Assembly: GCF_000744815.1 (NCBI RefSeq)
Contig: NZ_JQMQ01000005.1
Span: 2,612,055-2,676,054 of the forward strand
DNA from: Phaeacidiphilus oryzae TH49
Lineage (GTDB): Bacteria > Actinomycetota > Actinomycetes > Streptomycetales > Streptomycetaceae
Direction: 5' to 3'
DNA: 64,000 nucleotides
Under the pieces are notes generated by a model. The model ran no database searches and was not told the origin of the DNA. It worked only from the letters and a program-made list of their open reading frames with translations. A program made the position numbers and the translations under genes. Below, in pieces: positions 50,317-53,531 of this stretch. The first letter of the stretch is position 1; each line of letters starts with the position of its first letter.

Positions 50317-51084
50317 GTGGACCAGCCGAAGACCTCAGCGACCACCCCGCCCCCAGCCTCCGGCGCCGCCGCGCCACCCCCGGCACCGCCAGCGCCGGGG
50401 CCGCGGCCCTCGGTCACCCAGCGGGCCATCGAGCGGATCAAGTCGATGATCGCCGCCGGCGAGCTGGAGCCGGGCCAGCGCCTCCCCACGGAACGGGACC
50501 TGGCCGCGCAGCTGGGCCTCTCCCGTTCCTCGATGCGGGAGGCCATCCGGGCGCTGACCGCCCTCGGCGTCCTGGAGGCGCGGCACGGCTCGGGGATCTA
50601 CGTCACCCGTCTGGAGGCCGGCGACCTGCTGGAGACCTTCGGCGTGGTCGCCGAGATCTCGCGCGGGCCGCGCCTGGTCGAGCTCCTGGAGGTCCGCAGG
50701 ATCCTCGAGTCCGCCGCGACGGCGATGGCCGCGGCCCGCATCGACGACTCCCAACTGTCCGATGTGGCCGACCACTTGGCCGCGATGGAGGCCACCGACG
50801 ATCCGGACGCGATCCTCGCCCATGACCTCGACTTCCACCGCTCGGTGGTCGCCGCGGCCGGCAACGAGACCCTCGCGGCGATCATCGAGGGCCTCTCCAA
50901 CCGCACCTTCCGCGCCCGCGTCTGGCGCGGCTACCAGGAGGAGGGCGCCTTCGCCCGCACCCGGGCCGAGCACGCCCGCATCCACGCCGCCCTCGCCGCC
51001 CGCGACCCCGAGGCCGCGAGAGCGGCCGCCGCCGTCCACGTGGCCGAGGTCGAGAACTGGCTCCGCGTGAACACGACGCCCTAG
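50317..51084 (+). CDS. GntR-family (FadR/FCD) transcriptional regulator
   Basis: A 255-residue FCD-type GntR regulator with a 30-residue Pro/Ala-rich leader, winged helix (GELEPGQRLPTERDLAAQLGLSRSSMREAIRAL) and FCD domain (HDLDFHRSVVAAAGNETL, RAEHARIHAALAARD). It is a close relative of the regulator at 13855-14541. GTG 50317 is chosen from the leaderless promoter; upstream codons lie over the promoter itself. It is divergent from the sugar importer, which it probably represses. Confidence 0.9.
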   Translation: MDQPKTSATTPPPASGAAAPPPAPPAPGPRPSVTQRAIERIKSMIAAGELEPGQRLPTERDLAAQLGLSRSSMREAIRALTALGVLEARHGSGIYVTRLEAGDLLETFGVVAEISRGPRLVELLEVRRILESAATAMAAARIDDSQLSDVADHLAAMEATDDPDAILAHDLDFHRSVVAAAGNETLAAIIEGLSNRTFRARVWRGYQEEGAFARTRAEHARIHAALAARDPEAARAAAAVHVAEVENWLRVNTTP

Positions 51085-51112
51085 CCCCCACCCCGCACCG
51101 CAAGCGCACAAA

Positions 51113-51363
51113 GGGGCGCGAGGAACTGCGCGCCCAGCCCCCTACGACGCCCCACCCGGCAACGCCCGCCGCCCCGCCGAGCCGCCGCCGCCCCCGCGCC
51201 GCAGGCGCCATAAAGGGGCGCGGGGAACTGCGCGCCCAGCCCACTACGTCGCTCCACCCGGCAACGCCCGCCGCCCCGCCGCGCCGCCGCCCCCGCGCCG
51301 CAGGCGCCATAAAGGGGCGCGGGGAACTGCGCGCCCAGCCCACTACGACGCCCCACCCGGCAA
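51113..51363. repeat. Tandem left arms of the intergenic repeat, copy 7
   Basis: Three near-identical units of 99-102 bp begin at about 51113, 51215 and 51314. Each has GGGGCGCGGGGAACTGCGCG (GGGGCGCGAGGA in the first), CCCAGCCC, CCACCCGGCAACGCCCGCC, then CGCGCCGCAGGCGCCATAAA before the next unit. It fills much of the 441-base gap 51085-51525. The regular spacing is not CRISPR-like because the whole unit, not just a short repeat, is conserved. Confidence 0.8.
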
Positions 51364-51525
51364 CGCCCGCCGCCCCGCCGCCCCGCCGCCCCCCGGAAAC
51401 GGTGAAGATCGGGGCCGCGGCGAAAGATCCACGTCACCAACGCATCGTCAACTGTCGCTCTCACCCGGAGGAACGAGATCCCCCGCGCGAAACGCGCCCG
51501 CCCGCCCGCACACCCTTACGCTCGG

Positions 51526-52320
51526 ATGGTGACGACCCCCCGCCGCACCCTCCTCCGCGCAGCCGCCCTCGCCCCCGCCGCCCTCACCACCCTCGCCGCC
51601 TGCGATTCCGGCGGCCAGAGCGACCAGAGCAGCCACGAGTCGGTGACGGCACGTCGGACCGCCTCCGCGTCCCCGGCGTCCGCCCCTGCCTCCCCCACCC
51701 CGGCCGCCGGGGAGGACGCCCTCCCCTTCCACCTCCACACCGGCCCCCGCACCACCCACGCCGTGGCCCTCACCTTCCACGGCCAGGGCGACCCCGCCGT
51801 CGCCACCGCCCTCCTCGCCGAGGCCGAGCGCGCCGGCGCCCGTCTCACCGTCCTCGCCGTCGGCAGCTGGCTGGACGCCCAGCCCCAGATGGCCCACCGC
51901 ATCCTGTCCGGCGGCCACGAGCTGGGCAACCACACCCAGCACCACATCGACATCTCGTCGCTCCCCGCCCCCCGCGCCTACGCCGAGATCGCCGACTGCG
52001 CCTCCCGCCTCCACCGGCTCACCGGCTCCATCGGCCGCTGGTTCCGCCCCTCCCAGGCGACGGACTGCACCACCACGGTGGCCGCCCAGGCGGCCCGCGT
52101 CGGCTACCGCCACTGCCTCGGCTACGACGTCGACTCACTGGACTACACGGACCCCGGCCCGGACGCCGTGGTCCGCACCGTCCTCCAGAAGGCCCGTCCC
52201 GGGTCGATCGTCAGCATGCACTTCGGCCACTCTGGAACGGTCACCGCACTCCCCCGAATCCTCGACGGTCTGCATCAGCGCGGACTCCGCGCCGTCACCA
52301 CCACGGAGCTGTTCAAGTGA
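51526..52320 (+). CDS. CE4-like lipoprotein with a non-canonical active site
   Basis: A 264-residue exported lipoprotein (basic/Tat-like TPRRTLLRAAALAPAALTTLAAC, lipobox LAAC) with a Ser/Ala/Pro linker and a polysaccharide-deacetylase (NodB/CE4) fold. Motif 2 is intact (H136-T-Q-H-H140) and motif 3 reads RWFRPS (171-176). Motif 1, normally T-F-D-D-G, is T-F-H-G-Q at 83-87, so both the catalytic base and the metal aspartate are missing. A late histidine (SIVSMHFGH) is kept. It may be inactive, lectin-like or differently metallated. TACGCT lies 6 bases before GTG 51529, an alternative start. GTGA coupling to the next gene. Confidence 0.8.
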   Translation: MVTTPRRTLLRAAALAPAALTTLAACDSGGQSDQSSHESVTARRTASASPASAPASPTPAAGEDALPFHLHTGPRTTHAVALTFHGQGDPAVATALLAEAERAGARLTVLAVGSWLDAQPQMAHRILSGGHELGNHTQHHIDISSLPAPRAYAEIADCASRLHRLTGSIGRWFRPSQATDCTTTVAAQAARVGYRHCLGYDVDSLDYTDPGPDAVVRTVLQKARPGSIVSMHFGHSGTVTALPRILDGLHQRGLRAVTTTELFK

Positions 52321-53531
52321 ACCCCGCCCGCCGCCTCGTCCTCGCCGCCACCGCCGCCGCCACCTGCGTCCTGGCCTTCTCCGGGTGCAGTGCGAGCCCC
52401 GGCCACCAGCAGGCGATCGACTCCGGCGCGAGCAGTTCCGCCACGGCCGCCCCTCCGTCCGCGCCGGCCTCCGCCGCCTCGCCCGCCGGCGGCTCGGACG
52501 CGGCGCTCCCCGGGATGCCGCCTCTCCTGGACCCGAACAACATCTACGCGGCCGACGCCGCCGACCGGCTCTCCCCGACCGTCCGGAGCTTCCCGAACCG
52601 GATCTACGTCCCCAACACCGAGTCCAACACGGTCACCGTCATCGACCCGGCGACCTACAAGGTCCTCTACACCCTCAGGGTCGGCCGCGAGCCGCAGCAC
52701 GTCGTCCCCTCCTGGGACCTCAAGACCCTGTGGGTCAACAACGACCTCGGCAACAGCCTGACCCCGATCAACCCGGCCACCGGCAAGGCCGGCAAGCCGG
52801 TCTCCGTCCACGACCCGTACAACCTCTACTTCACCCCGGACGGCAAGTACGCCATCGTCATGGCGTCCAACGACCGCCAGATCGTCTTCCGGGACGCCCA
52901 CACCATGCGGGTGGTCAAGGCCGTCCCCTCGCAGTGCGGCGGGGTCAACCACGCCGACTTCTCGCCCAACGGCCGCTACTTCATCGTCTCCTGCGAGTTC
53001 TCCGGCGACCTGCTCAAGGTGGACACCGAGCGGATGCGGGTGGTCGGCAAGCAGAAGCTGCCCGAGGCGCACGCCATGCCGCAGGACGTGAAGCTCTCCC
53101 CGGACGGCCGCACCTTCTACATCGCCGACATGACCGCCAACGGCGTCTGGCGGCTGAACGGGGACACCTTCGCCAAGCCCACCCTGCTGTACACCGGCAA
53201 GGGCGCGCACGGCCTCTACGTCAGCCGGGACGCCAAGTCCCTCTACATCTCCAACCGCGGCGAGGGCTCGATCTCGGTCCTCGACTTCGCCACCGGCAGG
53301 CTGACCGCCAAGTGGCACCTGCCCGGCGGCGGCAGCCCGGACATGGGCGGCGTCTCCACCGACGGCAAGGTCCTCTGGCTCTCCGGCCGCTACAACTCGG
53401 TGGTGTACGCGATCGACACCACGAACGGAAAGCTGATCAAGAAGATCCCGGTCGGCGCCGGCCCGCACGGCCTCTGCGTCTATCCCCAGCCGGGCCGGTA
53501 CTCCCTGGGCCACACCGGCGTCTTCCGCTGA
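52317..53531 (+). CDS. YncE-family beta-propeller lipoprotein
   Basis: A 404-residue lipoprotein (lipobox LAFSGC at about residue 25) with a Ser/Ala/Pro linker and a seven-bladed YVTN/YncE-type propeller made of repeats such as IYVPNTESNTVTVIDPATYK, DLLKVDTERMRVVGKQKL and VYAIDTTNGKLIKKIPVG. It should sit on the outer face of the membrane; relatives bind ligands or partner proteins. GTG 52317 overlaps the CE4 gene stop (GTGA), so the two are translated together and probably work as a pair. Confidence 0.85.
   Translation: MNPARRLVLAATAAATCVLAFSGCSASPGHQQAIDSGASSSATAAPPSAPASAASPAGGSDAALPGMPPLLDPNNIYAADAADRLSPTVRSFPNRIYVPNTESNTVTVIDPATYKVLYTLRVGREPQHVVPSWDLKTLWVNNDLGNSLTPINPATGKAGKPVSVHDPYNLYFTPDGKYAIVMASNDRQIVFRDAHTMRVVKAVPSQCGGVNHADFSPNGRYFIVSCEFSGDLLKVDTERMRVVGKQKLPEAHAMPQDVKLSPDGRTFYIADMTANGVWRLNGDTFAKPTLLYTGKGAHGLYVSRDAKSLYISNRGEGSISVLDFATGRLTAKWHLPGGGSPDMGGVSTDGKVLWLSGRYNSVVYAIDTTNGKLIKKIPVGAGPHGLCVYPQPGRYSLGHTGVFR

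Follow-up and report, generated by a model that had tools for sequence, protein, structure and literature searches.

A CE4-fold lipoprotein encoded in the window (the whole 64,000-nucleotide stretch of DNA analysed here) carries a histidine in place of the catalytic-base aspartate, and its gene overlaps that of a beta-propeller lipoprotein with an invariant ring of His, Asp and Asn residues. The histidine is fixed among orthologues while the rest of the site is intact, which makes the family a natural test of a change of metal or chemistry in a large esterase fold. Tentatively, and with somewhat less than even confidence, we propose that the two proteins form a two-part surface system, in which a His-rich metal-dependent hydrolase would work with a propeller that has its own site. 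Many soil actinobacteria carry such overlapping genes for a His-for-Asp CE4-like protein and a His-lined propeller, and a proteobacterial parallel, described below, suggests that such a system, so far uncharacterised, exists. The features concerned are as follows.

51526..52320, + strand: CE4/NodB-fold lipoprotein gene, an open reading frame of 264 aa, with TFHGQG where TFDDG is expected
51778..51780, + strand: codon of His85, at the position of the CE4 catalytic-base Asp in the alignment to SpPgdA
52317..52320, + strand: GTGA overlap, in which the propeller start codon and the CE4 stop codon overlap
52317..53531, + strand: YncE-type seven-bladed propeller lipoprotein gene, an open reading frame of 404 aa, with a His/Asp/Asn inner ring and a C-terminal SLGHTGxxR
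53490..53528, + strand: conserved propeller C-terminal tail, PGRYSLGHTGVFR, which extends to the last residue

An earlier note on this DNA had placed both genes at 51526-53531 and described them as locked together by GTGA; both open reading frames and the overlap at 52317-52320 were confirmed. The CE4 protein has a lipobox-like stretch, MVTTPRRTLLRAAALAPAALTTLAAC, plus a twin arginine at its N terminus, and the propeller has a lipobox-like stretch, VNPARRLVLAATAAATCVLAFSGC. The second protein, a surface beta-propeller in the note, matches Pfam YNCE (PF21783; E 7.7e-27, 94.9 bits against a gathering score of 27.1).

The CE4 protein matches Pfam Polysacc_deac_1 (PF01522; E 2.8e-16) and scores below the curated cut-off of every NCBIfam model. 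The AlphaFold2 model of its domain (pLDDT 94.4) has the NodB-type barrel fold and aligns with the top-ranking CE4 structures with Z scores of 24-29, the best match in the PDB being BA3943 (6hm9; Z 29.2, rmsd 1.7, 202 aligned). The altered residue was placed by counting along a part of the SpPgdA alignment that has no gaps (2c1g/2c1i, the second of which is the D275N mutant). There, His85 aligns with D275, Gly86 with D276, and H136/H140 with H326/H330. As D275 is the catalytic base of SpPgdA and D276 a metal ligand, this alignment bears out the earlier claim that TFHGQ in place of TFDDG removes the base and one metal ligand.

If the histidine were an isolated mutation or a sequencing error, then homologues should carry TFDDG. 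Alignment of the homologues rules this out. His85 is present in all 62 orthologues (a set that includes the window and leaves out the window's own ordinary CE4 paralogues), and in a wider set of 124 aligned rows, in which a few loci are represented twice, TFH is found in 77, every one of which retains the other catalytic residues; the exception among orthologues is the nested subclade described below. Across identities of ~40-70% among the CE4 orthologues, H136, H140, R174, P175, S176, Y200, D203, D206 and H232 are each present in 62/62, and Gly86 in 57/62. The H(S/T)xxH metal ligands of motif 2 (H136, H140), the Asp of motif 4 and the catalytic His of motif 5 (D203, D206 and H232) are therefore all kept, as had been noted from the window for H-T-Q-H-H and the C-terminal histidine. 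Motif 3 keeps R174 and P175 and continues with Ser. Among 33 rows, 34 of the 205 CE4 columns are invariant and include all eight named active-site columns (chance p 2.7e-7). The second Asp of motif 1 is missing from 17 of 30 ordinary CE4 rows and the first from none, so the remarkable change is that of the first Asp to His.

Some CE4 match occurs in 392 of the 394 genomes of a family sample, and the orthologues are separate from the ordinary CE4s. We examined the history of the His85 form with a phylogeny of 120 distinct CE4 domains, from which two broken or partial-looking rows (L174, L175) were omitted. The 74 TFH rows and one nested group form a single clade on a long branch (support 100/100), at the base of which stands the propeller-associated TFH form. 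In the nested group, made up of 16 distinct rows from Streptomycetaceae (L158-L173), the sequence reads TF(D/E)GRGD, position 85 being Asp or Glu, position 232 Ser and position 203 Glu. The return to D/E, which happened once, was accompanied by the replacement of H232 by Ser and of D203 by Glu. The propeller is absent from all 16 genomes of the group, and we regard this subclade as a candidate secondary pseudoenzyme group. Two further TFH groups without a propeller, rows L152-L157 and L036/L041, keep His85. His85 is thus not strictly dependent on the propeller, and is bound more tightly to the intact CE4 site than to it.

Could the whole family consist of pseudoenzymes? In such a scheme the CE4 fold would be a sugar- or peptide-binding module that brings cell-wall material to the propeller without catalysis, like the CE4 pseudoenzymes of Bacillus. 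The replacement of the base and one metal ligand fits this, as does the presence of BA3943 and BA0150 among the best fold matches of the model; the entry titles of 6hm9 and 7bkf name pseudoenzymes, and 4M1B is called one in another report (PMC10967932). Motif 1 of both BA3943 and BA0150 deviates from TFDDG, and BA0150 is reported to be metal-free, with motif 2 changed too (PMC6115787). The window-type CE4 shares with these proteins its fold and an altered motif 1, but has one fixed replacement, His, with the other catalytic residues invariant, among them H232 and D203, residues that mere binding would not require. We therefore consider a pure binding role doubtful. Because the other catalytic residues are invariant alongside His85, and because H232 was lost once together with His85, the alignments are most simply read as those of a CE4 protein that is not dead. 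The earlier note had left the choice between a binding module and a new catalytic set-up; the second is favoured by this pattern, and the first fits it less well. The CE4 protein treated in PMC12772271 is a different one from that of the window.

The propeller gene lies directly downstream of the CE4 gene, on the same strand, in 55 of the 62 CE4 loci, and upstream of it in three (L058, L059, L065). No propeller is near the CE4 gene in L036 and L041, and the only one in L038 is distant and of a different kind. In 50 of the 55 adjacent pairs the propeller start codon and the CE4 stop share 4 or 1 bases, against an expected fraction of ~0.5, as overlap-permitting stop triplets make up about half in the fetched sequence at large (p 7e-11). 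L028, which falls outside this count, also overlaps by 4. By a simple motif rule, a lipobox is present in 34/62 CE4 proteins, 29 of these with a twin arginine, and in 36/59 propeller proteins. Across the 394-genome family sample, TFH CE4s assigned by E-value class occur in 262 genomes, 200 with the propeller and 62 without it, and the propeller occurs in 35 of the 111 genomes that lack a TFH CE4 (odds ratio 7, p 5e-16, a statistic that ignores relatedness). This test left out 16 D/E-type and 5 intermediate genomes, all without a propeller, and its lists were transcribed by hand. With two exceptions, the 62 TFH genomes without a propeller come from one genus. The CE4 protein and the propeller can separate, a point against a two-part system. 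Our search of a library of PMC papers returned no description of a CE4-propeller pair, which does not prove its absence from print.

The window propeller has a fold and repeat family in common with YncE/YVTN propellers (PF21783, TIGR03866) but is not a known YncE/TIGR03866 equivalog, an assignment we rejected at 46 against 400 bits for NF052280 and 108.7 against 287.3 bits for TIGR03866. The generic beta_rpt_yvtn repeat model is the sole NCBIfam model above its cut-off. What further distinguishes this propeller is an invariant ring and tail of its own: H128, N169, H212, D257, H298, D342, M343 and H384 are identical in 93/93 propellers (64 paired with a CE4, 6 paired with a creatininase and 23 unpaired), and the tail residues H399 and R404 are at least 95% conserved in each of the three groups. 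Judging from their place in the YVTN repeat, the ring residues probably face the funnel. Cys207 and Cys226 lack conservation among the unpaired propellers; the theme common to all is therefore not a structural disulfide. The AlphaFold2 model of the propeller (pLDDT 94.5) finds its best fold match in a structural S-layer YVTN propeller (1l0q; Z 35.7); gluconolactonase-type proteins and cobalamin-binding BtuG-like lipoproteins also match. Two copper enzymes with the same seven-bladed fold are nitrous oxide reductase (Z ~29) and thiocyanate dehydrogenase (8z75), which aligns at Z 29.0 and rmsd 2.9 over 306 residues, as far as model residue 340. The central tunnel of the latter holds three coppers (PMC9456337). 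Sequence kinship to either enzyme was rejected, as neither appeared in a PDB sequence search at E 1e-5.

The propeller is found in 34 of 396 genomes of the phylum. A CE4 gene adjoins 7 of 30 propeller loci fetched from the phylum and not the other 23, and the unpaired propellers (L102, L107-L110, L112-L129) have the full ring in 23/23. No TFH-type CE4 or creatininase lies beside the unpaired propellers in 20 larger regions; in L134, an ordinary TFDDG CE4 gene (L134:8086-9123) stands ~1 kb downstream of the propeller orthologue. Judged by these comparisons, the propeller is the more constant partner of the pair. Several unpaired propellers end in LGHNGVYR, not LGHTGxxR, and directly downstream of one, on the same strand, is a small lipoprotein-like open reading frame (L132:5526-6008).

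Outside the actinobacteria, a protein search of annotated plasmids yielded full-length propeller orthologues (50-56% identity) in 10 proteobacterial plasmid records, nine from Burkholderiaceae and one from Rhizobium jaguaris. In 10/10 a creatininase-family gene lies directly upstream, and in Rhizobium the two genes overlap by 4 bases. In the reciprocal direction, all 10 creatininase matches that cover most of the query at an identity of at least 55% are the same propeller records, a count that leaves aside five partial matches in B. contaminans and two that are C-terminal. Where the records give names, these are creatininase family protein, YncE family protein or hypothetical protein, and say nothing of the association. 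Seven of the regions were read with their genes, of which L097 and L186 look like one region copied. In L097, L185 and L186 the pair occurs with genes for copper oxidase, CopC/CopD, CueR or a heavy-metal P-type ATPase, and the genes around it differ from plasmid to plasmid, a pattern reminiscent of a mobile unit.

The plasmid partner belongs by profile to the creatininase family (PF02633; E 2.8e-42, 145.2 bits against a gathering score of 31.3), and differs from it by export, as its N terminus is signal-peptide-like by eye, by its coupling to the propeller and by two replacements in the metal site. Creatininase (1q3k) binds its metals through E34, H36, D45 and H120. In the alignment to 1q3k, all seven proteins read have H36 replaced by Ser and D45 by His and keep E34 and H120, so that the full ligand set is not present. 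The motif EQSG..ALGKHN occurs in 7/7 propeller-linked creatininases, against EQHG...D in 8/8 others, a set of eight controls only; GKHN creatininases may exist elsewhere without propellers. As far as the sequences go, then, the CE4 protein is replaced as propeller partner by a creatininase-family protein in proteobacteria, and the two unrelated hydrolase folds that share the propeller both show Asp to His in their first metal motif. This exchange of partners around one propeller offers a route to a putative shared substrate, which would have to be a compound open to both CE4-like and creatininase-like enzymes.

How might the two-part surface system that we favour work? The CE4-fold hydrolase would be exported as a lipoprotein, in many cases with a Tat-like twin arginine, and its metal site would be rebuilt: His85, in place of the Asp base, would most likely form a three-histidine metal site with H136 and H140. 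As R174, D203, D206 and the acid H232 stay, and with them the Arg/Asp relay, an amide or ester is probably still hydrolysed, though not in the manner of a standard Asp-base deacetylase. The propeller, with its own invariant His/Asp/Asn funnel centre, may bind or further process the same compound, or supply the metal; in proteobacteria, the creatininase-family hydrolase, likewise with Asp to His at a metal-ligand position, would stand in for the CE4 part. We infer that hydrolase and propeller share a substrate and are in physical contact. A small cyclic amide is a lead only, by analogy, because the CE4 superfamily, through the allantoinase PuuE (3cl6, a structure matched by the CE4 model), and the creatininase family both act on such compounds.

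It could instead be argued that the CE4 protein is a conventional deacetylase of peptidoglycan or another wall sugar, in which His85 takes over from Asp as general base and H136/H140 and water hold the metal, while the propeller is a docking protein. The protein has PdaB/PgdA-like profile matches, its fold and its H(T)xxH, DxxD and catalytic His (motifs 2, 4 and 5) are like those of the CE4/NodB deacetylases SpPgdA, ArCE4A and PdaC, and the loss of the second Asp is, as shown above, common in ordinary CE4s. However, those deacetylases have TFDDG and RPPY where the window-type CE4s have TFH(G/A/L)xG and RPS, the latter in 62/62; the D275N mutant of SpPgdA is reportedly inactive; and the parallel Asp to His in the creatininase partner would be left unexplained. 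We think this account unlikely. Least probable, to our minds, is metal (perhaps copper) handling, in which the propeller would be a metalloprotein of the periplasm or surface and its hydrolase-fold partner would load it with metal or protect it: the His/Asp ring, the copper enzymes among the near propeller folds and the copper/heavy-metal regions that host three of the four distinct Burkholderiaceae settings speak for it, but the best propeller fold match is a structural one, the pair in P. phytofirmans does not lie in a copper island, and no CsoR, Zur or Fur boxes are enriched upstream of the CE4 gene in 59 actinobacterial regions. ECF-sigma boxes are not enriched in these regions either.

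A bolder form of the two-part system is conceivable, and we offer it as a doubtful speculation: a new surface metalloenzyme system, in which the propeller would have a His/Asp metal centre and an accessory hydrolase would have been recruited twice from unrelated folds, the CE4 barrel and creatininase, each with Asp to His in its first metal motif, to serve one amide substrate or one metal, possibly copper.

The surroundings of the pair are variable. A genome contig scan turned up 32 loci, which belong to Streptomyces, Kitasatospora, Actinoallomurus, Dactylosporangium, Hamadaea, Planosporangium, Acidimicrobiaceae and uncultured actinobacteria. The neighbours in the window, named by eye as an ABC sugar transporter, a GntR-type regulator, an FtsW/RodA-like protein and Lon, are not common to these loci, and an all-against-all comparison of the neighbourhoods of the 32 loci and the window led us to reject a conserved third gene, the neighbours being clade-specific only. 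The stretch that separates the regulator gene from the CE4 gene holds, at window positions 51067-51366, a 99-base unit in three tandem copies, with AAAGGGGCGCGGGGAACTGCGCGCCCAGCC.
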